From assembly GCA_018432315.1 (NCBI GenBank), contig JAHDLB010000025.1:248001-312000 (forward strand): a stretch of DNA of 64,000 nt, given 5' to 3'. How positions within the stretch are numbered: position 1 is the first letter of the stretch; each line of letters starts with the position of its first letter. The translations under genes and the position numbers were made by a program. Below are positions 3,443 to 17,933 of the stretch, piece by piece. The DNA comes from Anaerolineae bacterium (GTDB lineage Bacteria; Chloroflexota; Anaerolineae; Aggregatilineales; Aggregatilineaceae). The notes below the pieces were generated by a model. The model was not told the origin of the DNA and ran no database searches. It saw nothing but the letters and a program-made list of their open reading frames with translations.

Positions 3443-4846
3443 CTACAGGCTCGTGACACCGGCGGCCTCGGTGTTCGCCCGGTTGAGCCGGTATCCCCGC
3501 CCGCGAACGGTACTGATGAATCGGGGATTGGATGGATCGACTTCCAGCTTGGACCGCAGGCGGCTGACCAGCTTCTCGATCCGGGCGTCGTCCACGTCTC
3601 CCAGGTAGTCCTGTCCCCACACAGCCTCGACGATCTGGGCCTTGTCGCAGATTTTGTCCAGCCGCCCATACAGCAACAACAGCAGCCGGTATTCAAGCTC
3701 GGTCAGCGATTCGATTTCCCTGCCGTGGACCCACACCGTCCCCGCGTCGATGTCCACCCACACGCCGTCCGGCACCGACTGCTGCACCAGCCCCTGCCGC
3801 CGGGCGTAGTTCTCGAACAGGCGCGCGAACAGGCGAAGCCCGCCCGCGTCCTCCACCAACAGCCCCCGCAGCAGCAGCTCGCGCCGCTCGGCTTCGGTGA
3901 GCGCGGAGGCGCCGCCCGCGACAAACCGGGTCACCGCGTCGCGCTCGGAAGGCAGCAGGTGCTTCCAGAGCTTGCCCAGTTCGTTGCGCACCAGCCGGTG
4001 ATTCTCCAGCACATCCCCGGCCATGCTCAGCGCTTTCTCGGTGTAATTCGGCGGCGCGCCGGATTCGACCTCCATCACGACGTACGCCACCGCCTGGATC
4101 AGCCCCGGGTGGCCGCCGGCCTGCTCCAGAATGTAATCGCGCTCCGGCGGGTCGAGGTGATCGTTGGCCTGCTCGAAGACTTCAACCGCCAGCTCGGTCG
4201 CTTTGTCCGGGCTGAGGGGGACCAGGTAATGCTTGTACGCCGCGAACAGCTCGAAGAATTCGGCCAGGTCGTCGCCGCCGCCCACCGCCGACGGCGGCTT
4301 GAGCGTGGCGGTGACGTACGACAGCCGCTCGACGTATTTGTCTTTGAGCGCCCGCAGGTTCAAAAACACGCGCTCGTCCAGGCCGGTGAGCACGGCGTCG
4401 AACTCGTCCAGCAGCAGGACCACGTCTTGCTCGGGCTGGTCGCGCAGCAGGGCAATGATCGCATCGTTGAACGCCAGCGGAACCGCGAACGTGCCCGGCG
4501 ATTCGATGACGGTCTGGTAGTGGGCGGCCACGGCGTGCTTGAGCGCCACGCGCGGCACCGGCGCGCGATCGAGCGCCTCCAGGGCCGCGCGCAGGATCAC
4601 CTCGTACAGGCCCTGGGCGCTCATCTCCAGCATGCGGTTGCAGTCCACGTAGACCAGCATCACGGCGCGGCCCGTCAGCGCTTCGTAGCGGCGGGCGACC
4701 TCCGGCTCGACCATCTGGCGCAGCAGCATCGACTTTCCGAGGTTGCTCAGGCCGACAACCGAAACGGACTGCCCGGTCGCCAGCCGGTCGAGAACAGCGC
4801 TCACATCGTGCGATCGATAAGGCGTCAGGTGAAAATCAGAGTTCAT
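3443..4846 (-). CDS. AAA ATPase fused to C-terminal OmpR/PhoB-type winged helix
   Basis: This 467-aa soluble protein has a Walker A (GLSNLGKS, residues 32-39) and a Walker B (VVLLLDEFDAVL, DE at 147-148) in an ORC1/STAND-like ATPase module (about 1-330). The last 100 residues form a PhoB/OmpR winged helix, with the recognition segment DDARIEKLVSRLRSKL and the terminal wing FISTVRGRGYRL. There is no receiver domain, so ATP or ligand binding rather than phosphorylation probably controls DNA binding. No Shine-Dalgarno is visible before the ATG at 4846. A 24-bp palindrome sits 19-42 bp upstream, which suggests autoregulation. It lies upstream of, and on the same strand as, the GAF sensor, so the two may be co-regulated. 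Confidence 0.85.
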   Translation of the reverse strand: MNSDFHLTPYRSHDVSAVLDRLATGQSVSVVGLSNLGKSMLLRQMVEPEVARRYEALTGRAVMLVYVDCNRMLEMSAQGLYEVILRAALEALDRAPVPRVALKHAVAAHYQTVIESPGTFAVPLAFNDAIIALLRDQPEQDVVLLLDEFDAVLTGLDERVFLNLRALKDKYVERLSYVTATLKPPSAVGGGDDLAEFFELFAAYKHYLVPLSPDKATELAVEVFEQANDHLDPPERDYILEQAGGHPGLIQAVAYVVMEVESGAPPNYTEKALSMAGDVLENHRLVRNELGKLWKHLLPSERDAVTRFVAGGASALTEAERRELLLRGLLVEDAGGLRLFARLFENYARRQGLVQQSVPDGVWVDIDAGTVWVHGREIESLTELEYRLLLLLYGRLDKICDKAQIVEAVWGQDYLGDVDDARIEKLVSRLRSKLEVDPSNPRFISTVRGRGYRLNRANTEAAGVTSL

Positions 4847-4928: not shown

Positions 4929-6659
4929 TCAGGCCGACGCGCGCAGCTTGCGCGCGATGAACACCACCGCCACCAGACCGATCGCCGCAATGGCGAGCAC
5001 CGTCAGGCCGTTGGAGCCATCCAGGCCGCCGTCGCCATCCGACGAGAATAACCCGCTCTGCGGCATTTCCGGCTCGACCGTATCGGTCGGCGTGACCAGG
5101 CCGGGCGTCCCTTCGGTGGGCGTGATGTTTTGCTCGGCGAAAGCCGTCGCCGTCAGGTCGATCGGCGCCAGCCCCGGTGTCGCCGTCGGCAGCGCCCCGA
5201 TGGTGAAGGTGATCTCGCCGCTGACGGGCACGTCGACCATGACGTACACCAGCTCGACAGTCGGATCGGGCACCAGCGCCTTGAGATCGTCGGGCAGCGA
5301 GTCGTAGTCGAGCTCCAGCCAGTAGATGCCCGGCTCCAGCGCGCCGAAGTCGAAGCTGCCGTCCGGGCCGGTGATCACGCTCGTGATGAACTCGTCCGGC
5401 TCAGGTGTGGGCGTGCCTTCGCCCTCTTGCGGCAGCGGGCCGAGTGCCTCGATGGGCACCACCCGCGCGAACGGCGGGATGGTGTAGCCGCTGGCGTCGT
5501 CCGGCGCAGGCGCGGACTCGCTCTCCGCCGCGTCTTCCTCGAACGCCTCGCCGCTGCTCAGTTCCAGCGTCAGCGAGTACGGCCCCGGCGCGGCCACGCT
5601 GTCCACGTTGATCGTGTACCGGCCATCGGCGGGCAGGGCGTAATCGAAGATCGCCGCGTTGAAGTCGCCGCCGCTGTCGTCGTCGTCGATCAAGAACTCG
5701 TCGTCCGGCCCCAACAGCTCAAGGAACAGGTCCATCTGCTCCGGCTCGCCGGCCTCGGTCGTGATCGTGATCAGGTCGCCTTCCGACCCGGTGAAGAACC
5801 ACGGATCGGGCGCGTTGCCGGTCAGCGTGCCCTGGACGGTCTGGCCGTAGCTGATCGGGCGCACGTCGGGCACGTCACCGGTCCCGGCCTCGCCGCCGGT
5901 CGCGCCGTCACCGATGCCCGGCGCGGGAGTTGTCTCCGGCGGGGCGACCTGGCCCTCGACGACTTCCGCCGTTTCTTCAGGCCCGGCAGGCGGGGCGGCA
6001 GGTGTGACCGATGCGGCGGGCGTCGGCACGATGGCGACCGGCGCCGGGTTGAACACGCCATCGCCATCATCGCGATAGAGGCGAATCCCCACGTTGCCGA
6101 AGACCGTGCCGTCTTCGTTGACCAGCCGCCCGCGAATCGTGCGCGCCGCGCTCTCGGTGGCCGTCATGGCCGCGTTCAGCGCTTCCTGCGTGGCGGCTTC
6201 GGAGGTGGCCGTCTGCCCGGCGAGGAATTCGGCGGTGGCCGTCTGTTCGGCTTCGAGCGTGGCCTGGGCGGACTGCGTCTGGAAGCTGATCTCGGTCTGC
6301 GTGGCGTTGAACTCGAACGTCATGATCGCTTCGCGCGTCGCCTGCTCGGCCAGCGCGACAGCCGTCACAGTATTGTCAAGCGCTATCGCCACCGCGGTAT
6401 TGGTCTGGATGACCGCCGTGCTGGTCATCTCGTTGGGCGACAGCTCATCGTCGCCGGTGACGGCCAGCGCGATCAACACGCCAACGATGACCAGGACCAA
6501 CACCAGCAAGATCGCGCCAACGATCTTGAAGGTCCGACTGACCCCGCCGCGCGGCTCTTCTTCCTCGGCAAACGGATCTTCCTCAAAGTCGAACGTTGGC
6601 GACTCGTCTAGGGCGCTGTAATCTTCGAGGTCTTGGAAAAGTTCGTCATCTTGGCTCAT
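4929..6659 (-). CDS. membrane-anchored surface protein with split SdrD/Cna-like domain and PPC-like insert
   Basis: 576 aa. Residues 1-43 are acidic and cytoplasmic, and 46-67 are a transmembrane helix. Residues 80-165 are Thr/Ala/Gln-rich with helical periodicity (probable coiled stalk). A carboxypeptidase-regulatory/SdrD-like strand set begins (GRLVNEDGTVFGNVGIRLYR), is interrupted by Pro/Thr linkers and a PPC-like beta sandwich (DPWFFTGSEGDLITI through YTINVDS), and resumes (TGPDGSFDFGALEPGIYWLE). The C-terminus has MPQSG, a hydrophobic span and a short basic tail, like a sortase sorting signal although not LPxTG. The Shine-Dalgarno GGAGGAAA lies 5 nt before the ATG. It follows the 359-aa protein by 63 nt and could be the last gene of the MutL operon or have its own promoter. 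Function is unknown beyond an envelope role. Confidence 0.8.
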   Translation of the reverse strand: MSQDDELFQDLEDYSALDESPTFDFEEDPFAEEEEPRGGVSRTFKIVGAILLVLVLVIVGVLIALAVTGDDELSPNEMTSTAVIQTNTAVAIALDNTVTAVALAEQATREAIMTFEFNATQTEISFQTQSAQATLEAEQTATAEFLAGQTATSEAATQEALNAAMTATESAARTIRGRLVNEDGTVFGNVGIRLYRDDGDGVFNPAPVAIVPTPAASVTPAAPPAGPEETAEVVEGQVAPPETTPAPGIGDGATGGEAGTGDVPDVRPISYGQTVQGTLTGNAPDPWFFTGSEGDLITITTEAGEPEQMDLFLELLGPDDEFLIDDDDSGGDFNAAIFDYALPADGRYTINVDSVAAPGPYSLTLELSSGEAFEEDAAESESAPAPDDASGYTIPPFARVVPIEALGPLPQEGEGTPTPEPDEFITSVITGPDGSFDFGALEPGIYWLELDYDSLPDDLKALVPDPTVELVYVMVDVPVSGEITFTIGALPTATPGLAPIDLTATAFAEQNITPTEGTPGLVTPTDTVEPEMPQSGLFSSDGDGGLDGSNGLTVLAIAAIGLVAVVFIARKLRASA

Positions 6660-6722
6660 GCTGTTTCCTCCGCGATAGCGGCATGACTAAGTACGCTGAT
6701 CGGCGTGCGATGTCCCAACCAT

Positions 6723-7802
6723 CTAGCCCAACAGCTCCAGGTTCGCCAGCGGGACCACCACCACGCGCTCGCTGGGCAGTTTCACCCGAGCGCAGGGCAG
6801 CCGCAGCCCGCTGCCAACGACCTGAGGTCCATCGGGCAGAGCCACCACCTCGCCAATCCGACCATAGCCCGGCGCGCGCACAATTCGCACCCTGGCCCCC
6901 ACGGCCACCGGCTGATCCAGCGCCGGCGCGGGCGGCAGAGTCCCCCCTGAGGGTAATGGGATCACGATCTCCGGGCGATCCTTCGACCAGGGATCGGGCA
7001 CGGCAGCATCGAAAGCGGCCTGCCGTCCCATGTTACTCTGCAATAGGGTATAAATCAATTCGGTCGAGCGGCGCTGTCCAAACCCTTCTGTAAGCAATAC
7101 TGGGAATGTAAGCTGCATCGCAAATTCGCGCAAGTTGGACGGCATGCTCGGCGCGACCACGCCGGCGACCTCCTGCTGTTGGGCGACCAGTAAGTCGCCC
7201 TTGTTGATCGGCGCCGGGCTGATGATCACCACGTGGCGGTATTCCGAGATGCGCACGTCGAGCTTGCTCAGCCCGACGAAGCCTTCCTCCGGCAGAAACC
7301 GGTAGGGGCTGAAGCGGTACTGCCCGTTGCCCCAGGCGCACTGGATGAGCGCGCCGTTGCCCACCACCTGGACGGCGTTCGGCTCCACCGACACCAGCTC
7401 GCCGGGGATCCTGGCCTGGATCTCGACTGCGCGCTCGCTGGCCTGGATGATGATCCGGCTGTCCTCGACCCGCACCACCTGCCCCTCCACCGGGGAGAGC
7501 ATCGACCTGGCCCGGCGGCCTTTGCCGCGCCGCGCCAGCTCCTGGCCGAACTGGACGCGCTGCCCCTCGCTGACCTCGATCAGCTCGGCGGCTTTTTGCG
7601 CCTGGCGGATGTTGAAGAACGCGGCCACATCCAGAATGCGGTACTGCTTGAGGATGTCGCCTTCGAGCACCACGGTCACGGCGTCGACCGACTGGCCGGC
7701 CACGATGTGCACCGGGCGCGGGATGGCCTGGGGCGGCAGGCGGCGCTCGCGCTGGATGCGGGTCAACCCCTGGATGATCGTCGTCTCAGGATAGGTTGCC
7801 AT
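6723..7802 (-). CDS. uncharacterised protein with barrel-sandwich-like and KOW-like segments, last gene of MutL operon
   Basis: 359 aa, soluble, mostly beta. The start is set at the ATG at 7802 because AGGAGG lies 6 nt upstream; a longer frame would add a basic low-complexity tail. The start overlaps the end of the MutL-like gene by 17 bp, indicating coupled expression. Residues about 70-120 look like a lipoyl/HlyD-type barrel-sandwich half (MLSPVEGQVVRVEDSRIIIQ). The C-terminal 60 residues resemble a KOW/SH3-like barrel (VGARVRIVRAPGYGRIGEVV). No catalytic motif is evident and I do not recognise a named family. Its position suggests it acts with the ATPase. Confidence 0.75.
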   Translation of the reverse strand: MATYPETTIIQGLTRIQRERRLPPQAIPRPVHIVAGQSVDAVTVVLEGDILKQYRILDVAAFFNIRQAQKAAELIEVSEGQRVQFGQELARRGKGRRARSMLSPVEGQVVRVEDSRIIIQASERAVEIQARIPGELVSVEPNAVQVVGNGALIQCAWGNGQYRFSPYRFLPEEGFVGLSKLDVRISEYRHVVIISPAPINKGDLLVAQQQEVAGVVAPSMPSNLREFAMQLTFPVLLTEGFGQRRSTELIYTLLQSNMGRQAAFDAAVPDPWSKDRPEIVIPLPSGGTLPPAPALDQPVAVGARVRIVRAPGYGRIGEVVALPDGPQVVGSGLRLPCARVKLPSERVVVVPLANLELLG

Positions 7803-9606
7803 CGGCGGCCTCCTCCGGCGCGGTGGGGTACAGGTCCTCGATGCTGGGCAGCAGGGCATCGGCATCCGGCTGGGCGCGCTGGCCCATCATGGCGAGCTGC
7901 CACTGCATGAATCGCGCGGCGCGATCGCGCGGGCGGGGCATCACCAGCGGGCGGCCCCGGCCATCGAAGATCACGCCCGCCGCGCCCGCCGTCACCCGCA
8001 GCTTGAATCGCCGCCGCCCGCTGATCGTCAGCCCGCCGCGCAGCCTGACCGCCACCTCGACCGGGTCGCCGGGCAGCGCCGGAACCATCCAGATCTCGCC
8101 GCCGCGCACGGTGTGATTCAGGACCTGCCCGTCAGCCAGCCGGGCCTGCACGTACATCACGTCCTGCCCGTACCGGACGCGTCCCTGGGGGCTGAACGCC
8201 GTCCCCAGGCTGACCAGGCCGGGCGCTTCGAGCGCCTGCACGGTGATGAGCGGCTTGAGGTAGGCCACCACGCCCAGCGACGACAGCAGGTTGTACGGGT
8301 CGATCTGAAGCTCGGTGATGCCGACCGGCTGCAGCGCGTCCAGCAGCAGCAGCGCCGCGATGCCCGGATGCTGGGCTTGGGTCAGGATCGACCCGGCGGC
8401 AATGATCGGGCGGAAGGCGGGCAGCAGGTCGCCGTGCCCCAGGCCCCAATCGGCGCGCGCTTCGGCCACCAACAGGCGCAAAATCTCGCGCGCGAATGCC
8501 TGTTCGAGCATCAATTCCTCGGCAGTGCCGGGCACCGTGGACGGGCGAAGCTGCTTGTTGTGCGCGTAGTCCCACAGGTCGTCGATCTCGACGTCGAACG
8601 GCACCCAGCGCAGTACGTTCTGCGGCGTGATGGCTTCCTGCGCGCTGACCATGCTGTGTCCCATGCCCAGATCGGTGCGGATGGTGAAGCGCGGCTCGCG
8701 GTCGACGCCCGCCACCAGCGCGCTGTTCGCGCTGCCGATGTCCGCCACCAGCGGCCCGATCCCCTTTTGCGGCAGGTGGCTGAGGTACCGCACGGCGCTG
8801 ATCAGGCCCTGGACGGTCGGGACGACGCCCACCTGGCTGTGACGCCCGATCTCGACGAAGCCGCCGGGCGACTTGGTGCGGTAATCGTCGTACACCAGCG
8901 ACAGCTCGATCTGCGCGGGGAATACCTGCTCGTCGGCCAGCGTGGGCCGCACGTTGCGCGCCATATATACCTCGGTGACCGGCGAGAGCAGCTCGTCCAC
9001 CTCGCGCTTGAGGGCGCGATTCCCGGCGAACAGGACGACCGGCATCTTGCCGCGCGTGAGCAGCAGCAGCGCCTGCTGGATCGTCTTGACCAGGTCGATC
9101 AGGATGTCGTCGGCCCCCTCGTCCGTCCCGCCGACGATCAGGATCAGGTCCGGCTCGTCGCGCAGGATCGCGTTGATCTTCTGCTCCTCGCTGCGCAGGT
9201 CATCGGTGCTGAGCGTGTCGGTGACCGTGACGTAGGTCCCGGCCAGGGCGCGGCGGCCACTGGCGATGCTGATCTCCGGTGTGAGGCCGACCAGAAAGAC
9301 CTTCATGGGGCGCCCGGCGCTGCTCGTCGCCAGGAACTCGTCCACGCCGTGGCCGCCCGCTTCGGGCATGATGAACATCTGATCGGCTTCCAGGCTCAGC
9401 AGGCCGCGCCCGATCTGGTGCGCCATCGCATCCGCGGCGTGCTCGACGCCCAGGCTCACGTTGCTGAGCGGCGGCGCGGCGGTCGTGCGGGCGCGCGAGG
9501 TGGCGATCAGCCGGTACTGGCCCTCGACCAGATCGAGCAGCACCAGCCGGGTGTGCACGTTGCCGATGTCGGCGATCAGGAGCGAGTTGACGTGTTCGAA
9601 TGCCAT
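7786..9606 (-). CDS. MutL/GlmL-type actin-fold (ASKHA) ATPase, extended form
   Basis: 606 aa from the ATG at 9606, 5 nt after the stop of the upstream membrane protein; a longer frame would read through that gene. Phosphate-1 is LLIADIGNVHTRLVLL (D13, G15, T19). A second ADIGSANSALVAG (288-300) and an adenosine-type AAGSILTQAQHPG (403-415) complete the ASKHA signature. This matches the glutamate mutase L family, which is usually about 450-470 aa and encoded beside the cobalamin mutase subunits. Here no mutase subunit or B12-binding motif is nearby. The C-terminal 140 residues (about 465-606) are an extra beta-rich segment. Encoded among integral membrane proteins, it is more likely the motor or switch of an envelope complex than a mutase reactivase; that role is inference. 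Confidence 0.85.
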   Translation of the reverse strand: MAFEHVNSLLIADIGNVHTRLVLLDLVEGQYRLIATSRARTTAAPPLSNVSLGVEHAADAMAHQIGRGLLSLEADQMFIMPEAGGHGVDEFLATSSAGRPMKVFLVGLTPEISIASGRRALAGTYVTVTDTLSTDDLRSEEQKINAILRDEPDLILIVGGTDEGADDILIDLVKTIQQALLLLTRGKMPVVLFAGNRALKREVDELLSPVTEVYMARNVRPTLADEQVFPAQIELSLVYDDYRTKSPGGFVEIGRHSQVGVVPTVQGLISAVRYLSHLPQKGIGPLVADIGSANSALVAGVDREPRFTIRTDLGMGHSMVSAQEAITPQNVLRWVPFDVEIDDLWDYAHNKQLRPSTVPGTAEELMLEQAFAREILRLLVAEARADWGLGHGDLLPAFRPIIAAGSILTQAQHPGIAALLLLDALQPVGITELQIDPYNLLSSLGVVAYLKPLITVQALEAPGLVSLGTAFSPQGRVRYGQDVMYVQARLADGQVLNHTVRGGEIWMVPALPGDPVEVAVRLRGGLTISGRRRFKLRVTAGAAGVIFDGRGRPLVMPRPRDRAARFMQWQLAMMGQRAQPDADALLPSIEDLYPTAPEEAADGNLS

Positions 9607-9611
9607 GCTGA

Positions 9612-10289
9612 TCAGCCCCCCACTCTGTCGAGGATGAACCGGATCTGCGCGTCGATCACGTCGCCGAAAATCGTGATGCTGGTGACAATCGCCCCAGCGT
9701 ACAGGGCCCCTAACGCCACCATCACGAACAGGCGCCCGACCGCGCCCAGCGGGCGAAACAGGCGCGGCGCGCGGATCTCGCCGCCCCGCTCGACCGCCCA
9801 ATACTGGAAATAGGCCAGGGTGGTCACGGTGCCCACCACGATCACGATGCCGTCCAGGGCGCTATCGCCCACCGCCTCCCCGGCCTCGCGCGCCAGCGGG
9901 ATCACCGTCCCGGCGACGGCGCCGACCACGGCGACCGCGGTCCCGATGCCGATCACGGCGGCCAGCCCCAGGTTGCCCACCGGCGCCAGCCGCGGCGACA
10001 GCTTGAACAGCAGCAGCGCGCCGAACAGGAGCGGGACCGCGCCTATCACGCGCAAGGCGACCATCGTCGCGTCGCTGCGCGCGCCCTGATCGGCCAGCAG
10101 CGTGTCGTTCAGCCACGGGACGAGCACGCTCTCCAGCGCCACCACGGCAATGTAGCCCGCCGCCACGCCGACCAGCACGTGCACGGCGATGCGGTAGAGC
10201 ACGTTGTCGCCGAGCAGATAGCTGAACACCAGCAGCGTCAGCACCAGCGAGGCCCACCCGGCTATCAGGTCAAGGGTATCAGGAGTCAC
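9612..10289 (-). CDS. integral membrane protein, about six TM helices
   Basis: 225 aa with GTG start at 10289, which forms a GTGA overlap with the stop of the 1032-aa gene upstream (10286-10288). Hydrophobic segments lie at about 8-28, 32-55, 78-98, 105-130, 145-165 and 180-205, with short loops and no enzymatic motif. It is similar in size and topology to the 222-aa membrane protein two genes earlier, so the pair may be diverged paralogues forming a membrane platform. Family not recognised. Confidence 0.8.
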   Translation of the reverse strand: MTPDTLDLIAGWASLVLTLLVFSYLLGDNVLYRIAVHVLVGVAAGYIAVVALESVLVPWLNDTLLADQGARSDATMVALRVIGAVPLLFGALLLFKLSPRLAPVGNLGLAAVIGIGTAVAVVGAVAGTVIPLAREAGEAVGDSALDGIVIVVGTVTTLAYFQYWAVERGGEIRAPRLFRPLGAVGRLFVMVALGALYAGAIVTSITIFGDVIDAQIRFILDRVGG

Positions 10290-13200
10290 CGCCGTCGCCT
10301 CCGTCCTAGCGCCCGGATACTGTTCACCACCATCCCCAGCGCGATCACGCCCGCCGCCAGCGCCAGCCCCAGCGCCATGCTGTGCCAGCGCGCGTCTTCC
10401 GGATTCGGCAGGTCGAGCGGCAGGTCGCCGGGCATGACGTAGGCCGCCCGCGAGGCCGCGTTGCGCGCCTGGTTGTAGCTGGCCGCGTCGCGATATCCTG
10501 CCAGATAGCCGGCGTACGCGTCCTCGTGGATGTACGGCGCGACGAGCGGCTCCAGCGCCGCCGTGACCAGCGCCACTTTCGGCACATCCACGCTTTCGAG
10601 CTGTTCGGCCCAGGTGCGCACCGCCTCGGACTCGCCGCCGATGACCGCGATCAGGCTGATGTCCGCCTCCACGCGGCTGATCGGCAGGTCGGTCGCCTCG
10701 CCGCGCAGGGTCGTGTCGAATGCCGGGTGGCGCTTGGGGGTGCCGTCGCTGTCCGAATAGGCATAGCGCAGCGAGCGCACGCCGACCGCCTCGCCCGGCA
10801 GGTAGGCCAGCGCGGCGTAATCTTCGCCGGGGACGAGCGCCGTCTCTTGCTGGCCGCGCACCGCGAGCAGCGCCGCGTCATCCGCCAGCGGCTCGATCAC
10901 CGCCCCGGCGTGGAACGCGCCCAGCGGGTCCGTGCTGAGCGCCAGCGGCACCGCCCCACGCGCCAGCACGTCGCGCAGCAGGGCTTCGACCAGCCCGTCC
11001 AATTCGCCCGCCGACGGCGGCCCGTACTCGAACGCGAACAGCACGTAGTCGCCCGGCTCCAGCGCGTCGACCTCACCGGCAACGGCCAGCCGGTCACCGG
11101 CCAGCGCGGGCGGATCCGCGGCCAGGTGCAGCGCGTCGGTCGCGAAGGGCACCAGCAGCCCCACCAGCAGGATCAGCGCCACCAGCACGCGGTCGGGCTT
11201 CAGGCGGCTTTTCCGGCGGCGCGCGGGGGCGGCCTCGCCGGCTTCGGCGTCCTCCGCCTCGTCATCCGCCGATATCGCGTCCATCAGCGCCTGCAGCCGC
11301 CGGGCGCGGGCCTGCTGCTCCGGCGTCACGACCAGCCCTTCGACCGATGGCGCGCGCGTCGCGGGGGGGAACACCGCGTCGATCAGCGGCAGCGCCCCGG
11401 CCACCCCGGCCAGCGGGCCGCTTTCCGGCGCCGGCGCGAGGTCTGCGTCGCCCAGGTCGTGCAGCGCCGCCTCGCGGAAGGCGCGCACGCGGTCGGGCAG
11501 TTCGTCGAGCTGCTTCTGGCGCATGCTCTTTTCCGCGCCGCCGGCCTTCACCGTCACCGGCAGGTCCGAGGGCCGCAGCTCGGCCACCCATTCGGGCTGC
11601 GCGCCGGGCACCGCCGGTTCTTCGGGCAGTTCCGGCTCGGCTTCCGGCTCTGGCTCCACGGCGAGCGGTTGGGGCGGCGGGGTCGGCGGGCGAGCGCTCT
11701 CGTCGCCTGCCGCCGCGAATTGATCGTCGATCTCCGGCAGCGCCTCGCCCGGCTCGCCGCCCGCGAACAACGCCTCGAAATCGGGCATATCGGCGGCCTG
11801 GGGTTCTGCCGGTTGGGCGGGCAGGCCCAGGTCATCGTCCCACACCATACCGGCCCCCAGGTCCTCATCGATCAGGGCCGGCCACGCTTCCTCGCCGGTT
11901 GGCTCCAGGTCCAGTTCCGCTCCCGGTTCCGGCTCACCGGCGGACTCGTCCACATCGTCGTACAGCCCCAGCAGTTGATCGAGCGCCTGGCTGTCCAGCG
12001 GCGCCGTGCCGAGCGCGTCCCCGGCGGCTTCTTCCGCCGGTTCCTCCGGAGCGACGACCTCCTCAGCGCCCATCCCGGCGCCTTCATCCGCCTCCACCTC
12101 CGACAGGTCGGCCAGCCAATCCATGTCGTCTTCGGACACGCTCACCGGGGCCGGTTTTTCCGCCTCGGCTTCGGGGGCCGCCTCGAAGGGCGATTCATCG
12201 AATTCAGCGCTGCCTTCTCCGGCCATATCGCGCAGCCACGCCGGGGCTTCCTCGTCGACCGGGGCAGGCGTGAACTCGTCCGGCGTCAGCGGCTCGAAGC
12301 GCTCGACGAAATCTTCCGGCTCCGTCGCGGCCTCCTCCGGCGCGGCGGCGGGCGGCATCTCGGCCAGCCACGCGTCCACATCGCGCGCGGCAGGCTCGTC
12401 GGGCGGCGGTTGGTCCAGGTCCAGGTCGGGGAAGGGGATGTCTTCCGGCCCGGCGATCGCGTTATCCTGAGCGCCCGCATCACCGAGATCGTCCAGGTCC
12501 GGCAGGGGCAGTTCCTCGCCGGAATCGGCCTCGCCGGGCAGCGGGAGATCCATCCCCGCGAACCAGTCCGGCAGGTCGTCGCCGGACGGCTCGTCGCCGG
12601 GCGCGCCGGGTTCGGGCATATCCACAGGCCGTGTGACGGCTTCCGCCGACAGGTCCAGGTCCTGGAACCAGTCGGGCGCCTGTTCGGTGTCCTGGTCCTC
12701 CAGGCCCAACGCCCAGCCGGGCATGAACTCCGCCTCGCCGGGCGATTCCGGCGGCTCGCCTTCGGGCGGCCCGCCCGCCGCTTCGACCTCGTCGAACCAG
12801 TCGGGGACCTCTTCGAGCAGGCGTTCTTCGGGGGTTTTCTGTTCTTCGCGCAGGCGTTCCTGCTCGCGCTGCTCCCATTCCTCGAAGGTCAGATCCTCGT
12901 CGTCGGGCGCGGGTGCTTCCGCCTCGGGCGGGCGCGCCTCGTTGAGCCAGTCGGGGATCATGCCCGGCTCGGCGGGCGGCGCCTCGTCGGTGGGCATGTC
13001 TTCCGGCTGGTCGTCCACCGCGCTCAGCCAATCCGGGACTATCTCCGGCTCGGCGAGCGGCGCCTCGTCGGCGAACGGTTGCTCCTCCGGCTGGTCGTCC
13101 GCCGCGCTCAGCCAGTCGAGGTCCTCGTCGCTGGACTCGTCGGGGAGATCGGCCTCGGGCGCCTGTCCGAATGCGCTCAACCAGTCGTCATCCGCGGCGG

Positions 13201-13384
13201 GCGCGCCCGGCTCGGCCCCGGCTGCATCGGGCTGATCAGGCTCCAGCCACGGCAGCGCATCCCCGTCAGGCTGGCCGGGCTGCGACTCGCCGGACGGCTC
13301 GCCCTCGGACGCGTCATCATCGTCCATGTCGCGCATCCAGTCCGGCAGCAGGCTGTCATCAAAAAAGTTCGGATCGTCCGGCAT
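10286..13384 (-). CDS. 1032-aa acidic scaffold with repeated P-[DAG]-W-[LFM] motifs and two TM helices
   Basis: Residues 1-720 are highly acidic, Pro/Glu/Asp-rich and apparently disordered. They carry about 13 copies of a short motif such as LPDWMRDM, VPDWLSAV, IPDWLNEA, VPDWFDEV, APDWFQDL, LPDWFAGM, APAWLRDM and MDWLADLS. TM1 is at about 733-751 (after a KSRLKPDR stop-transfer-like patch). An extracytoplasmic globular domain spans about 752-1000, and TM2 (1003-1024) ends in IRALGRRRRR. By the positive-inside rule the acidic tail and C-terminus are cytoplasmic. The motif array looks like multivalent docking sites for partner proteins, plausibly those in this operon. No catalytic domain was recognised in the extracytoplasmic part. 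Confidence 0.8.
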   Translation of the reverse strand: MPDDPNFFDDSLLPDWMRDMDDDDASEGEPSGESQPGQPDGDALPWLEPDQPDAAGAEPGAPAADDDWLSAFGQAPEADLPDESSDEDLDWLSAADDQPEEQPFADEAPLAEPEIVPDWLSAVDDQPEDMPTDEAPPAEPGMIPDWLNEARPPEAEAPAPDDEDLTFEEWEQREQERLREEQKTPEERLLEEVPDWFDEVEAAGGPPEGEPPESPGEAEFMPGWALGLEDQDTEQAPDWFQDLDLSAEAVTRPVDMPEPGAPGDEPSGDDLPDWFAGMDLPLPGEADSGEELPLPDLDDLGDAGAQDNAIAGPEDIPFPDLDLDQPPPDEPAARDVDAWLAEMPPAAAPEEAATEPEDFVERFEPLTPDEFTPAPVDEEAPAWLRDMAGEGSAEFDESPFEAAPEAEAEKPAPVSVSEDDMDWLADLSEVEADEGAGMGAEEVVAPEEPAEEAAGDALGTAPLDSQALDQLLGLYDDVDESAGEPEPGAELDLEPTGEEAWPALIDEDLGAGMVWDDDLGLPAQPAEPQAADMPDFEALFAGGEPGEALPEIDDQFAAAGDESARPPTPPPQPLAVEPEPEAEPELPEEPAVPGAQPEWVAELRPSDLPVTVKAGGAEKSMRQKQLDELPDRVRAFREAALHDLGDADLAPAPESGPLAGVAGALPLIDAVFPPATRAPSVEGLVVTPEQQARARRLQALMDAISADDEAEDAEAGEAAPARRRKSRLKPDRVLVALILLVGLLVPFATDALHLAADPPALAGDRLAVAGEVDALEPGDYVLFAFEYGPPSAGELDGLVEALLRDVLARGAVPLALSTDPLGAFHAGAVIEPLADDAALLAVRGQQETALVPGEDYAALAYLPGEAVGVRSLRYAYSDSDGTPKRHPAFDTTLRGEATDLPISRVEADISLIAVIGGESEAVRTWAEQLESVDVPKVALVTAALEPLVAPYIHEDAYAGYLAGYRDAASYNQARNAASRAAYVMPGDLPLDLPNPEDARWHSMALGLALAAGVIALGMVVNSIRALGRRRRR

Positions 13385-13408
13385 AGCAGTCCTGTCCCTC
13401 GCGCGGCG

Positions 13409-14077
13409 TCAGTCGCGGAATGACCGGTCCTGGCCGATCAACACGCGGACCCCGACGGTCAGCGTGCCCAGGCCCACCCCGATCAACAGGCCGCGCATCC
13501 CGGCGCTGGCCGGTACGCGCACGACCCAATCGCGCACATCGCGCAGCACATCCATATCCTCAAACGGAACCCATCCCACCAGCACGACGATCACCGTCAG
13601 GCTGAAGAGCGCATTCCACACCGTGACGCGGTCGCGCATCAGGCGGTAGGCCGCGAACACCAGGAAGAACACCAGCAGCGCCGCCAGCGCCGACTCCAGG
13701 CTGACCTGCACCGACTCGAAGACGCGCACGCTGATCTGCTCGCCCTCCAGATCGCCCGACCAGACCTCGGCCCGGTCGAGGATCCGCAGCACGCCCACCA
13801 CCAGCGCCACCACCAGCACGAGCACACTGTACGGCCAGCCGCGCTCGGCCCGCACGAAGCGCCCCAGGTGGACCGCCACCAGGTTGACCAGCCCGGCCAG
13901 CACGGCCACGGCGGCGATCACGGTGACGAGCTGGATCAAAAACCGCGCCGTATCGGCAGCGGTCGAGCCGTCGTCGCTCAGCAGGCCGATCAGGGTGACC
14001 AGCCCGGAGCTGATCACGATGACGGTCGCCAGGAAGTTGAGTAAGCGATGGCGCTGCGCGCCGCTGTTCGTCGCCAT
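13409..14077 (-). CDS. integral membrane protein, about six TM helices
   Basis: 222 aa. Hydrophobic helices lie at about 14-34, 45-68, 80-100, 125-147, 155-170 and 195-212, with an external-looking loop around residues 100-125. It starts at ATG 14077, 7 nt after the stop of the 246-aa gene. Twenty-four nucleotides separate it from the acidic scaffold gene. No known transporter or enzyme signature was seen. It probably pairs with the 225-aa membrane protein downstream. Confidence 0.8.
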   Translation of the reverse strand: MATNSGAQRHRLLNFLATVIVISSGLVTLIGLLSDDGSTAADTARFLIQLVTVIAAVAVLAGLVNLVAVHLGRFVRAERGWPYSVLVLVVALVVGVLRILDRAEVWSGDLEGEQISVRVFESVQVSLESALAALLVFFLVFAAYRLMRDRVTVWNALFSLTVIVVLVGWVPFEDMDVLRDVRDWVVRVPASAGMRGLLIGVGLGTLTVGVRVLIGQDRSFRD

Positions 14078-14084
14078 AGTCGCC

Positions 14085-14825
14085 TCAGACCGCCGCCTGC
14101 ACCGCGGCCACGATGATGCCCAGGATCACCAGCCAGCGCAGCACGTCCAGCGCGACCACGCCGCCCCGTTCCAACGGGCTGCCGTTCAAATACGCCGCCG
14201 CCACGTACAATTCTTCGCCCAGCAGGGCCTCGTCCGCCTGGACGAACGCGACGGCCTGCCCCTCCGGCAGATCGCTGTGCGCGATCAGGCCCTGGTCGTG
14301 GCGGAGCGCGCTCTCGCCCAGCAGCGCCATTTCCACGCCGAACCGCCCCAGCAGCACGCTGCTGTGCACGTCCGCATCCGCGGCCAGGCTGGCGGCCCCG
14401 GCGGCAAACGACAGCGAGCGCGCGCCTTGCGGATACCACGCGGCGGCGCTGCTGCGATAGTGCGCCATGTTCTGGCGGAACTCGTAGGCCCGGCGCAGCG
14501 TGTCCTGCGCCAGCGGGAGCGTCAGCGGCTGGCTCAGCGTGACCAGCGGCGTCTGGCGGCTGACGGCTAACCGCTCCGAGAGCCGGTAGACGACCTCCGC
14601 CGCGGCCAGGGCGCTGAGGCTGCTGCTCGCGCCCAGGGCGCTGCTGCCCAGCGAGAAGTGAATCCGGTTGCTGCTCTCGACGGCGTCGGCGGCCTGTTCG
14701 GGCAGCACCCGGTACGCGGCGATCGGCCTGTGGTACAGCCGGGCCCGCCGCCAGAGAATCCGGGCTGCCAGGGTCTGCGCCAGGGCAACCGCCAGAAGAA
14801 CCCAGGTAAGCTCAGTGTTATTCAT
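14085..14825 (-). CDS. DUF6754-like membrane-anchored protein
   Basis: 246 aa with an N-terminal TM helix (about 5-24) and a C-terminal TM helix (about 225-243), enclosing a soluble alpha/beta domain. Features such as RIHFSLGSSALGAS, a central EFRQNMAHY segment and LLGEELYVAAAYL near the end resemble DUF6754 as I remember it; that family is uncharacterised. The start overlaps the end of the 98-aa gene by 8 bp, so the two are translationally coupled. It is probably a membrane component of the MutL-like ATPase complex. Confidence 0.7.
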   Translation of the reverse strand: MNNTELTWVLLAVALAQTLAARILWRRARLYHRPIAAYRVLPEQAADAVESSNRIHFSLGSSALGASSSLSALAAAEVVYRLSERLAVSRQTPLVTLSQPLTLPLAQDTLRRAYEFRQNMAHYRSSAAAWYPQGARSLSFAAGAASLAADADVHSSVLLGRFGVEMALLGESALRHDQGLIAHSDLPEGQAVAFVQADEALLGEELYVAAAYLNGSPLERGGVVALDVLRWLVILGIIVAAVQAAV

Positions 14826-15114
14826 GAGATGTCAACCCGCCATCCGGCTCAACCAGCCTGTCCCGCAGCCAGGCCATCCCGCCCGGCTGATCCAGCACGC
14901 GCGCCAGCGCGCCGATCTCGTCGCGCGGGACGAACAGCCCCAGCGCCGGCTGCGCGATCCATAACACGTGCGCCCCCAACGGCCCCAACGGCTCCGCCGC
15001 ATCGAGCAGCGCGCCGGCCAGCCCGTCCAGGCGGGCGGCGTGCAGGCGTCGGGACCAGCGGGCGAGCCGCTGCGCCCAGCGTTCGGCGTCAGGGGGAGCC
15101 ATCATCGGTAACAT
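14818..15114 (-). CDS. 98-aa uncharacterised protein, first gene of MutL operon (leaderless)
   Basis: The start is placed at ATG 15114 because a TATACT -10 element ends exactly 7 nt upstream, which would put the transcript 5' end on the A of ATG; no Shine-Dalgarno exists. The product is a small helical soluble protein (MLPMMAPPDAERWAQRLARW at the N-terminus) rich in Ala, Leu and Arg. Family not recognised. It overlaps the DUF6754-like gene by 8 bp and heads the operon. Confidence 0.7.
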   Translation of the reverse strand: MLPMMAPPDAERWAQRLARWSRRLHAARLDGLAGALLDAAEPLGPLGAHVLWIAQPALGLFVPRDEIGALARVLDQPGGMAWLRDRLVEPDGGLTSHE

Positions 15115-15240: not shown

Positions 15241-15520
15241 CATATTACAAATTGGCACAAAGCGTTGACCGGGACGAGTATTGGCCCCGGCCATTCCCAG
15301 GGAAAGCGGGTCGTGGACTGGAAACCCGCTCGATTGGCCCGCCAGGAAAACCCCCCGCGAGCGCGTCGCCGAACCGCCCCGGCGCAGTAGGTGATGCCGG
15401 CTGGCCCCGTTACCGGCCCCAAGAGGACAACCGCGCCCCGGCGCGCGCGTCGAAATTGGGTGGAACCGCGTGGATCATGAGGACCCTCGCCCCAAGTCTG
15501 TTGGGCGGGGGTCTACTATT
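15241..15520 (+). ncRNA. T-box riboswitch leader (threonyl-tRNA sensing, transcriptional)
   Basis: The core T-box TTGGG-TGGAACC-GCG lies at 15456-15470. TTGGG pairs with CCCAA (15491-15495) and GCG with CGC (15488-15490), leaving the 7-nt TGGAACC bulge of a canonical antiterminator. CGCCC is also the 5' arm of the terminator at 15482-15513, so the two folds exclude each other. Upstream, CCGGG (15269-15273) pairs with CCCGG (15378-15382) to close Stem I. ACGAGTA sits on the 5' side of the specifier loop (AGTA at 15277-15280) and GAACCG on the 3' side, giving ACC (Thr) at 15373-15375 as the best specifier. Uncharged tRNA-Thr should promote read-through into the 118-aa gene and thrS. The specifier is less certain than the antiterminator. 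Confidence 0.9.
15482..15520 (+). terminator. T-box intrinsic terminator
   Basis: GACCCTCGCCC (15482-15492) pairs with GGGCGGGGGTC (15503-15513) as an 11-bp stem with one G-U pair and a 10-nt loop. The tail TACTATTT is only moderately U-rich. Confidence 0.8.
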
Positions 15521-16067: not shown

Positions 16068-16133
16068 GCTGCGTAGATCATCATCCACACTCACGGGTTG
16101 CTACCCGGCTCAGAGGAGAAGGTTTTCACCATC

Positions 16134-17933
16134 ATGCAACGGTACCAGGACAGTCAGCTCTACCGTATCCGTCACTCGACGGCGCACGTCATGGCCCAGG
16201 CCGTGCTCGAGAAATTCCCGGAGGCCAAGATCGCCATCGGCCCGCCCATCGAGGACGGGTTCTACTACGACTTCGACCTGCCCCGCCCGCTGACGGAGGA
16301 AGACCAGGTCGAGATCGAGAAGCGGATGCGCGAGATCATCCGCGAGGGGCACGAGTTCATCCGCCGCGAAGTGAGCGCCAAAGAGGCTCGCGCCCTGTTC
16401 AAAGGCCAGCCGTACAAGCTCGAGCTGATCGACGGGCTGGAGCGCGGCGGCGTGGACGAATACGGCGAGAAAACGGACGAACCGGTCGTGATCAGCACGT
16501 ACCGGCAGGACACATTCGAGGATCTGTGCCGCGGGCCGCACGTCGCCAACACCCGCGAGATCAACCCGGACGCGATCAACATCACGTTCAAGGCCCCGGC
16601 GGGCGCGTACTGGCGCGGCGACGAAAACCGCGAGATGCTCACCCGCATCTACGGCACGGCGTGGCAGACGCCCGAACAGCTTGCGGAATACCTGGAACTG
16701 CTCGAAGAAGCCAAAAAGCGCGATCACCGGCGCATCGGCCAGGAGATCGGCCTGTTCACGTTCAGCCAGTTGGTCGGCAAGGGCCTGCCGCTGTGGAAGC
16801 CGAAAGGCGCCGTGCTGCGCGACCTGCTCGAGCGCTTCCTGCGCGACGTGCAGCTCAGCCGCGGCTACGAGCCGATCCTCACGCCGCACATCGCGCGCGT
16901 CAGGCTGTTCGAGACGTCGGGCCACTACCCGTACTATAAGGACAGCCAGTATTCGCCGTTCGAGGTCGAGGGCGAGCTGTTCATGCTCAAGCCGATGAAC
17001 TGCCCGCACCACATCCAGATCTATAAAGACGAGCTGCGCTCGTACCGCGACCTGCCGGTTCGCTATGCGGAGTTCGGCACGGTCTACCGCTACGAGAAAT
17101 CGGGCGAGCTGCACGGCCTGACGCGGGTGCGCGGCTTCACGCAGGACGACGCGCACATCTTCTGCACGCCGGAGCAGCTCGAGGAGGAATTCCTCAAGGT
17201 CGCGGACCTGGTCGAGTTCATCCTCAACAGCGTCGGCCTGACGGACTTCCGCGCGCGGGTGGGCATTCGCGACCCGGAGAGCGACAAGTACGTCGGCGAA
17301 GACGAGGGCTGGGAACACGCGACGCAGGCGATCATCGCGTGTGCCGACAAGCGCGGGCTGGATTACACGGTGGAAGAGGGCGAGGCCGCGTTCTATGGCC
17401 CCAAGCTCGACTACATCATCCGCGACGCGCTCAAGCGCGAATGGCAGATCAGCACGATCCAGGTGGACTACAACCTGCCCGCCCGCTTCGAGCTGGAATA
17501 CGTGGGCGAGGACAACGAGCGCCACCGCCCGATCATGATCCACCGCGCGCTGTACGGCAGCATGGAGCGTTTCGTCGCGGTGATGATCGAGCACTTCGCC
17601 GGCGCGTTCCCGGCGTGGCTGTCGCCGGTGCAGGTCGTGATGATCCCCGTGGCCGACCGCCACCTGGACTACGCGCGCGAGGTCGCCGCCCAGCTCCGCG
17701 ATGCCGGGCTGCGCGTGGAAGTCGACGACTCGGCGGGGCGCATGGGCGGCAAGATCCGCAGCGCGACGACGCAGAAAATCCCGTGGATGCTGATCGTCGG
17801 CGACCGCGACATCGAAAAGAGCGCGGTCAGCGTGCGCCTGCGCTCCGGCGAGGACCTGGGCGCGATGCACGTGGCGGACTTCATCACCCAGGCGAGCCAC
17901 ATCGTCGAGACGAAGGCGCTGCAACTGGCCTGA
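16134..17933 (+). CDS. thrS: threonyl-tRNA synthetase (no N-terminal TGS domain)
   Basis: 599 aa from ATG 16134, preceded by GAGGAGAAGG. It charges tRNA-Thr in the cytoplasm. The editing domain has RHSTAHVMAQA (H14, H18) and CRGPHVANT. The class II catalytic core shows MNCPHHIQIY (zinc-ligand Cys), motif 2 RYEKSGELHGLTRVRG and FTQDDAHIFC. Motif 3 is in PIMIHRALYGSMERF, and a C-terminal anticodon-binding domain starts at about AWLSPVQVVMIP. Bacterial enzymes are usually about 640 aa with an N-terminal TGS domain; here the protein starts directly at the editing domain. A longer frame from TTG 16098 adds only 12 residues and no TGS. Control by the upstream T-box is strongly supported; an intrinsic terminator follows the stop. 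Confidence 0.97.
   Translation: MQRYQDSQLYRIRHSTAHVMAQAVLEKFPEAKIAIGPPIEDGFYYDFDLPRPLTEEDQVEIEKRMREIIREGHEFIRREVSAKEARALFKGQPYKLELIDGLERGGVDEYGEKTDEPVVISTYRQDTFEDLCRGPHVANTREINPDAINITFKAPAGAYWRGDENREMLTRIYGTAWQTPEQLAEYLELLEEAKKRDHRRIGQEIGLFTFSQLVGKGLPLWKPKGAVLRDLLERFLRDVQLSRGYEPILTPHIARVRLFETSGHYPYYKDSQYSPFEVEGELFMLKPMNCPHHIQIYKDELRSYRDLPVRYAEFGTVYRYEKSGELHGLTRVRGFTQDDAHIFCTPEQLEEEFLKVADLVEFILNSVGLTDFRARVGIRDPESDKYVGEDEGWEHATQAIIACADKRGLDYTVEEGEAAFYGPKLDYIIRDALKREWQISTIQVDYNLPARFELEYVGEDNERHRPIMIHRALYGSMERFVAVMIEHFAGAFPAWLSPVQVVMIPVADRHLDYAREVAAQLRDAGLRVEVDDSAGRMGGKIRSATTQKIPWMLIVGDRDIEKSAVSVRLRSGEDLGAMHVADFITQASHIVETKALQLA

Follow-up and report, generated by a model that had tools for sequence, protein, structure and literature searches.

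What does an ATPase of the glutamate mutase L (MutL) family do in an operon of membrane-protein genes, apart from any mutase? The question is raised by eight genes, A to H, lying throughout on the minus strand of a 64,000-nt stretch of DNA (the window; contig JAHDLB010000025.1, positions 248,001 to 312,000) from the 5.69-Mb genome of an Anaerolineae bacterium of the phylum Chloroflexota. The original prediction, made from the letters alone, described seven tightly coupled genes, possibly eight; coordinates, overlaps and strand were all found to be as claimed, and the genes lie where that reader had placed them:

14818..15114, minus strand: gene A, 98 aa, the first gene of the operon
14085..14825, minus strand: gene B, a DUF6754 protein with a cytosolic Rossmann-like domain between two transmembrane (TM) helices
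13409..14077, minus strand: gene C, 222 aa, a six-TM protein without known family
10286..13384, minus strand: gene D, 1032 aa, with an acidic, probably cytosolic tail carrying P-x-W (PxW) motifs, a TM helix, a putatively extracytoplasmic Rossmann-like domain and a second TM helix
9612..10289, minus strand: gene E, 225 aa, a six-TM protein without known family
7786..9615, minus strand: gene F, 609 aa, an ASKHA ATPase of the long MutL type, whose C-terminal domain (roughly residues 460-580) is conserved, with a likely ATG start at 9615
6723..7802, minus strand: gene G, 359 aa, with a barrel-sandwich hybrid (BSH) and a C-terminal KOW domain
4929..6659, minus strand: gene H, 576 aa, with an acidic N-terminal tail and a TM helix (both by eye), extracytoplasmic parts like PPC and CarboxypepD_reg, and a C-terminal TM helix

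Spacing is close throughout, with overlaps of 8 bp (A/B), 4 bp (D/E), 4 bp (E/F) and 17 bp (F/G) and gaps of 7 nt (B-C), 24 nt (C-D) and 63 nt (G-H).

Gene order and the two modules

Gene order was compared in 81 loci, namely the window and 80 others that were chosen by a match to F (60 loci) or to DUF6754, the family of B (20 loci), and were picked by hand with a preference for long contigs and different families. For the first set, a search of 199 genomes of the class with F gave matches in 130 (E <= 0.001), the weakest of them being partial or ordinary MutL; 40 loci of these genomes were taken, profiles were built and mapped, and the window made 41 class loci. For the second set, DUF6754 was searched across the phylum, with 68 of 301 genomes matching and 20 loci taken, F not being the selector. 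The third set comprised 20 loci taken after the F profile had matched 184 of 300 genomes in divergent families. For the map, each gene was represented in each locus by its best match (E < 1e-3), and the window was limited to its first 22 kb.

The members found followed the order A-B-C-D-E-F-G-H on one strand in all 81 loci, as expected from the original prediction, for which synteny in relatives had been named as the check. The complete set was present in 24 of the 41 class loci, some of the others reaching a contig end. Gene A, which has no Pfam family, had a profile match at its place in 26 of the 41 class loci and in 18 of the 20 selected by DUF6754. G was present in 39/41, 10/20 and 20/20 loci of the three sets, and A to F without G in 8 of the 20 loci of the second. 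Loci of the third set showed F-G alone (14), D-F-G (4), A-F-G (1) or B-G (1). An H-type gene came next in 34 of the class loci, a softer count, given the variability of H and the partly low-complexity make-up of its profile (matches rose from 8 to 36 over the rounds).

A two-module arrangement was shown by these patterns, with A-E as one module and F-G, often with H, as the other. G070 and G041, two genomes from the same genus, had only F-G-H at the F locus and an intact A-B-C-D-E on another contig, indicating a natural break between E and F and the keeping of both modules while unlinked. F-G occurred without A-E in whole lineages and is the minimal unit.

Eighteen of the 20 loci chosen by DUF6754 contained F and the remaining two stop at a contig end; 66 of the 68 genomes with DUF6754 were among the F matches listed, and one of the other two was below the completeness filter. 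The B profile gave no match in 19 genomes whose F-G locus is without B, C and E, and none in 9 genomes without F; it found B elsewhere in four genomes in which the F contig is cut short. DUF6754 matched none of 14 control genomes. In tblastn searches of plasmids, E retrieved no record and F retrieved 8, of which three carried no annotation and five were labelled GlmL or glutamate mutase L; none of the 8 matched beyond query residue 460. The operon is real and widely conserved in Chloroflexota, other phyla having been sampled sparsely, through the 14 control genomes and the plasmid searches. A gene set with conserved order over a deep phylum and with hardly any nameable parts probably serves something basic for these cells.

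The ATPase F and glutamate mutase

On sequence grounds F belongs beyond doubt to the MutL family. It matched Pfam MutL (PF13941) over residues 13-461 of 609 (E 1.5e-57, 195.8 bits against a cut-off of 27), and profile alignment with two ordinary MutL/GlmL proteins of the phylum gave a probability of 99.8-99.9 %. The scores stayed below the GlmL cut-offs of NF040745 (95.6 of 475 bits) and TIGR01319 (70.7 of 204 bits). The ASKHA nucleotide motifs, DxGSxxT, GGxDGG, DxG and GxxLxxxPxPG, are kept as consensus in 54 aligned F proteins (alignment A4, which excludes L064, L066, L067, L068 and L071).

Beyond about residue 460, a conserved domain follows that ends in GGxxGLIIDARGRPLxLP...W, with D548, R550 and W569 invariant in the same 54 proteins. 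Ordinary MutL of the phylum (n = 12) stop at profile position 446-452 of 561. The extra tail of 140 residues that had been noticed in F does exist, and it is not peculiar to this protein, being a conserved domain of a long MutL type. In a tree built from the core only, with the rows of long forms (those matching beyond profile position 530) cut to 470 residues, 79 long and 12 ordinary forms were split by one branch with a support of 100, which none of 500 shuffles equalled. The tree was a quick, unrooted one, in which several rows had long branches or unlike composition and L137 was omitted for taking the same place as L101. F accordingly belongs to a long type, a new subgroup of a known family. 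A PDB search with the 154-residue C-terminal piece was without result, and hhalign gave a probability of 0.2 % for kinship of this domain with G.

The window's own genome has one MutL only and gave no GlmE match at E <= 0.001. Among 46 genomes searched, GlmE was above cut-off in six, including 4 of the 44 with a long MutL (G348, G037, G066 and G001); in these four it always shared a contig with a second, ordinary MutL, and in the single-contig G348 it was 0.48 Mb from the long gene. In none of the 44 long-form genomes searched did GlmE adjoin the long MutL; three of them (G018, G224 and G302) had sub-threshold GlmE matches only. As a control, 11 ordinary MutL of the searched genomes were inspected: five were within about 600 bp of GlmE, three had a weaker match about 3 kb off, and the remaining three (in G350, G245 and G448) had no GlmE on the same contig. 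A plasmid copy annotated in Escherichia coli displayed the classical S-L-E order. Both MutL forms were present together in six genomes (G348, G037, G066, G001, G448 and G245).

The absence of a mutase subunit, part of the original claim, therefore extends to relatives as far as linkage to the long MutL is concerned and, together with the conserved order, gives good support to a membrane-linked gene set. F shares with GlmL/MutL (PF13941, NF040745) the ASKHA core, as seen in the Pfam and profile matches, and differs in its C-terminal domain, its separate branch, the lack of adjoining GlmE and membrane partners that are fixed in many lineages. A Pfam "MutL" label in Chloroflexota consequently often denotes the long type, whose partners are different and do not include a mutase. 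A further variant was observed at L134 (5472-7469, minus strand) in G245, a genome with a long MutL as well and no GlmE match: a MutL of the ordinary type whose core is preceded, in the frame, by about 200 additional residues.

Motif arrays of D and features of B, C, E and G

D is the most striking part of the operon. A long acidic tail, which is probably disordered and projects into the cytosol, is followed by a TM helix, a domain of about 230 residues and another TM helix. The acidic protein of 1032 aa had been singled out for its multiple P-x-W motifs; in the window, 9 PxW[LFMIVA] motifs were counted in the tail against 0.9 in shuffles, and the largest array (L083) had 63 against 4.1 expected. 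Over 712 motifs, the context was [DE]-[VLI]-P-[DAE]-W-L-[RQK]-[ED]. Arrays of this kind mark the D gene: scanning the 81 loci in six frames gave 47 open reading frames (ORFs) with at least four PxW[LFM], 45 of which were D by profile and two (L106 and L108) were assigned as D from their position. These ORFs lie in 46 loci, so one locus contributes two.

The 65 D proteins vary in their make-up. Nineteen have fewer than four motifs, and 40 carry a zinc-ribbon-like CxxC...CxxC. In large genomes of the third set, D keeps the zinc ribbon and the array and, as judged by eye, has a basic amphipathic end, but it has no C-terminal domain, and B, C and E are missing from its neighbourhood. D of L112 and L115 consists of a zinc ribbon, two or three motifs and what looks by eye like a TM helix. 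No Pfam match was obtained for D of the window. Alignment A1 of D excludes L036, L037, L054, L056, L064, L065, L067, L068, L071 and L091. Zinc ribbons at the N-terminus were matched in the D-equivalents at L112 8808-9671 (DZR, 1.1e-9) and L104 7590-9473 (DZR, 0.0026, and Zn_Ribbon_1, 0.00056, below cut-off). Separately, an acidic ORF with 4 PxW motifs was seen in the window's own genome after a tetratricopeptide repeat (TPR) array protein (L102 6045-8492, minus strand).

Among the 46 loci with arrays, F was found in 45, the remaining one (L091) stopping at a contig end; G was not found in 9, including L091, and B, C and E were all absent in 5. F is thus the only constant partner among the operon products of array loci, and on this ground we propose that F reads the motif.

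B is the DUF6754-like protein of the original prediction and a member of a family without described function (PF20539, residues 9-244, 67.2 bits against a cut-off of 27, E 1.6e-18). Structures predicted for B (pLDDT, the model confidence score, 93.6) and for the C-terminal 310 aa of D (pLDDT 89.8) each showed an alpha/beta Rossmann-like domain between two TM helices. Topology was taken from a simple hydropathy count and positive-inside counts. Two TM helices were called in 28 of 50 B orthologues, with a mean K+R of 0.2 in the N-flank, 5.6 in the loop flanks and 0.3 in the C-flank, by which the B domain is cytosolic; for D, with two TM helices called in 44 of 58, the corresponding values of 3.5, 2.0 (over 30 residues) and 3.4 suggest that the domain is extracytoplasmic. 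Neither domain had a Foldseek match at E <= 0.001. The best VIA match of both was CODH/ACS epsilon (D, Z 9.3, 3.1 A, 146 aligned; B, Z 10.0, 2.8 A, 131 aligned), tied with RCK, dehydrogenase and other domains, and hhalign gave a probability of 0.6 % for sequence kinship between the two. In the PDB profile search, B had no match and D had non-significant matches only.

The two six-TM proteins were recovered as C and E, six hydrophobic segments being counted in 43 of the 51 C and 44 of the 54 E orthologues. No PDB profile match was found for either at E 0.1, and no family was common to more than one of 41 C or of 45 E members (alignments A5 and A6, using 41 of the 51 C and 45 of the 54 E proteins). 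Library scans of the window proteins gave no accepted family of Pfam or NCBIfam type for A, C, D and E; a weak sub-threshold match of C was to TssN (0.096).

G, described before as barrel- or KOW-like, has domains of BSH type and KOW type. Family matches at E <= 0.1 among 49 G proteins were to RnfC_N (17), KOW (17) and NQRA_N (10), with SPT5/NusG KOW profile matches in addition; the Pfam match of the BSH domain in the window was below cut-off, and no signal peptide was seen in G. Both kinds of small beta domain are shared with BSH proteins (RnfC_N, NqrA_N, biotinyl) and KOW proteins, from which G differs in that no Fe-S, complete biotinyl-enzyme or transcription-factor architecture was found around these domains.

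A possible mechanism, its alternatives and neighbouring features

We tentatively regard the operon as a two-module membrane machine in which F is an ATP-controlled clamp or switch on the motifs of the D tail, a reading that falls somewhat short of probable and applies to Chloroflexota, where the system has been seen so far. It starts from the gene order, the co-retention of genes, the separate long type of F, the motif arrays, and the predicted folds and topology. Module 1 (A-E) would be a membrane assembly that includes the six-TM proteins C and E and has the Rossmann-like domain of B in the cytosol and that of D outside; F and G, often with H, would form module 2, a cytosolic ATPase with a BSH/KOW adaptor. 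The D tail would present repeated [DE]-[VLI]-P-x-W-L motifs to the cytosol, and F, a MutL-type ASKHA ATPase free of a mutase, would bind them under ATP control. Many F molecules, with G where present, might then gather at the membrane on the multivalent tail, whereby module 1 would be assembled or a state relayed across the membrane to the outside via B-E. The products would in that case form a complex, perhaps with a role in organising the envelope. The originally suggested role of the ATPase as "switch or polymer" is likewise a matter of inference. A broader formulation, according to which this is a new machine, old in the phylum, whose MutL-family ATPase reads a repeated P-x-W-L code on a membrane scaffold and perhaps on TPR proteins too, is doubtful, if possible; it would mean a multivalent, ATP-controlled assembly at the inner face of the membrane, coupled to a module of DUF6754, six-TM and extracytoplasmic Rossmann proteins.

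PilM-PilN and FtsA-FtsZ are pairs in which the ASKHA member clamps a short peptide belonging to its partner. The likeness lies in F, an ASKHA protein, standing beside a membrane partner, D, with a short-motif tail in the cytosol. The differences are that F has no profile kinship to PilM (0.2-0.3 %) or FtsA (3 %) and that the motifs of D come in arrays.

Several observations weigh against the proposed clamp mechanism. The constancy of F beside arrays is partly built in, as F itself was the selector for 60 of the 80 loci added to the window. A TPR protein of the window's own genome, far from the operon (frame of 1305 residues; L102 8536-12450, minus strand, contig C43), has 14 PxW-hydrophobic motifs, and the motif receptor could be encoded outside the operon. 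Two PxW motifs occur on the tail of F itself in L082. The strict PDW[LF] pattern was not enriched genome-wide in the DNA of the own genome, with 54 matches against 70 for the reversed control. Several lineages have F with no PxW-array gene seen beside it; in family f57 (three loci), D is about 300 residues long and has no tail. A single column (P46) distinguished the F proteins of loci with arrays from those of loci without. F was no closer to PilM than a TPR control was (0.2 %), and the fold matches of B and D are those of a generic Rossmann domain.

Among other explanations, F-G may be an ATP-driven reactivase or maturation chaperone for another client, with the membrane genes as client or anchor. 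GlmL is thought to act as a reactivase or chaperone for its mutase, F is clearly of the same family, the BSH domain of G resembles parts of RnfC, NqrA and biotinyl proteins, and F-G is the minimal unit; against this, GlmE accompanied the long MutL in only the four genomes named above and then at the second, ordinary MutL (mutases besides GlmE were not searched for), no steady enzyme neighbour of F-G was noticed in the loci viewed by eye, and A-E match no cofactor-enzyme family. We consider this explanation unlikely. Quite unlikely is an actin-like polymer or scaffold for wall growth or division, with F as an extra MreB/FtsA-like element. FtsW/RodA was matched in all 36 genomes with F, and the four of 61 genomes without FtsW/RodA were all without F; yet 21 of 25 F-less genomes (five of the 25 called so from a single-sequence search) have FtsW/RodA too, and F was rejected as a mere cell-wall marker. 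In G302 and G505, both with F, the best FtsA-family match was only as strong as MreB-type matches elsewhere, but a clear FtsA match (E under 1e-17) was present in 59 of the 61 genomes, with or without F, and an FtsA-family match above cut-off in all 61, making replacement of FtsA improbable. What are presumably an alanine-racemase-like gene before F-G in L122 and PBP-like and PspA/IM30-like genes flanking F-G in L066 were noted by eye; the other loci viewed had no steady cell-wall neighbour.

That the operon is the gliding motor of filamentous Chloroflexota is very unlikely. The Herpetosiphon aurantiacus genome paper (PMC3368417) states that no counterparts of the known gliding genes turned up in that organism and that the gliding genes of Chloroflexi are unidentified, and an A-F operon does lie on a contig taken as the chromosome of that strain. 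The operon, however, is widespread in the class and extends to other families with small genomes, nothing suggests that gliding is common to all these bacteria, and no gliding family matched above cut-off, the GltJ model touching H at E 0.35 only. A 2026 review, in the part available, lists Chloroflexota merely as reported gliders (PMC13104615). It is highly improbable that the operon is a relative of the assembly platforms of type IV pili or type II secretion with F as PilM and D as PilN. The only two PDB sequences in the F profile search were PilM and a PilM-PilN fusion (E 0.06-0.07), and D is membrane-anchored with a cytosolic N-terminal tail; but in hhalign two PilM-like proteins from Chloroflexota aligned with F at the level of the TPR control, compared with 99.8-99.9 % for GlmL, two genomes with F have a PilM-like protein of their own, and the nine scanned proteins had no PilN/O/P, secretion ATPase or accepted pilin match above cut-off (H, T4SS_pilin at E 0.85 only). 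Membership in PilM was rejected; several matches of the PilM search were FtsA or, by eye, EutJ-like proteins. An Rnf/Nqr-like electron-transport complex, with G as RnfC and C/E as six-TM Rnf subunits, is hardly credible: an RnfC_N-type BSH match was found in 17 of 49 G proteins and two six-TM proteins are present, but the match is confined to the BSH domain, the G matches include no Fe-S family, and neither C nor E matched an Rnf/Nqr family. Anti-phage defence was rejected, no PADLOC family being matched by the 8 proteins at E 0.1.

Literature searches found no publication on DUF6754 and, in the parts of publications available, none tying MutL-type proteins of the phylum to a membrane system; searches on gliding, conserved genes and the PxW motif returned nothing describing the operon or its function. 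In the available part of the Chloroflexus aurantiacus genome paper, "glutamate mutase" is absent (PMC3150298). We rate the system as new as a whole and the ATPase as a new subgroup of a known family. The PxW-L arrays offer a ready handle for finding the receptor by peptide.

H had Pfam matches to PPC (7.1e-6, just above cut-off) and CarboxypepD_reg (1.2e-4, below cut-off) and weak sub-threshold matches to TrbL (0.005) and FliL (0.04), besides those mentioned above. Its C-terminal end (window 4929-6659, minus strand), a P-Q-S-G stretch followed by a TM helix and a basic tail, resembles by eye a surface-protein sorting signal. One optional neighbour was found downstream of H in 8 of the 41 class loci:

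3443..4846, minus strand: gene I, an AAA/STAND-like ATPase with an OmpR-type DNA-binding domain (Trans_reg_C, 1.1e-19; AAA_16, 5.3e-7, just below its cut-off)

A scan of genome contigs gave a single contig, 68 % identical. On the other side of the operon and divergent from it, a T-box leader was detected at window 15256-15497 (plus strand; 71.3 bits, E 3.2e-15). It precedes an ORF of 118 aa and the gene of a threonyl-tRNA synthetase (16098-17933, plus strand); its score is under the Rfam gathering score of 93, and the default Rfam scan did not report it.

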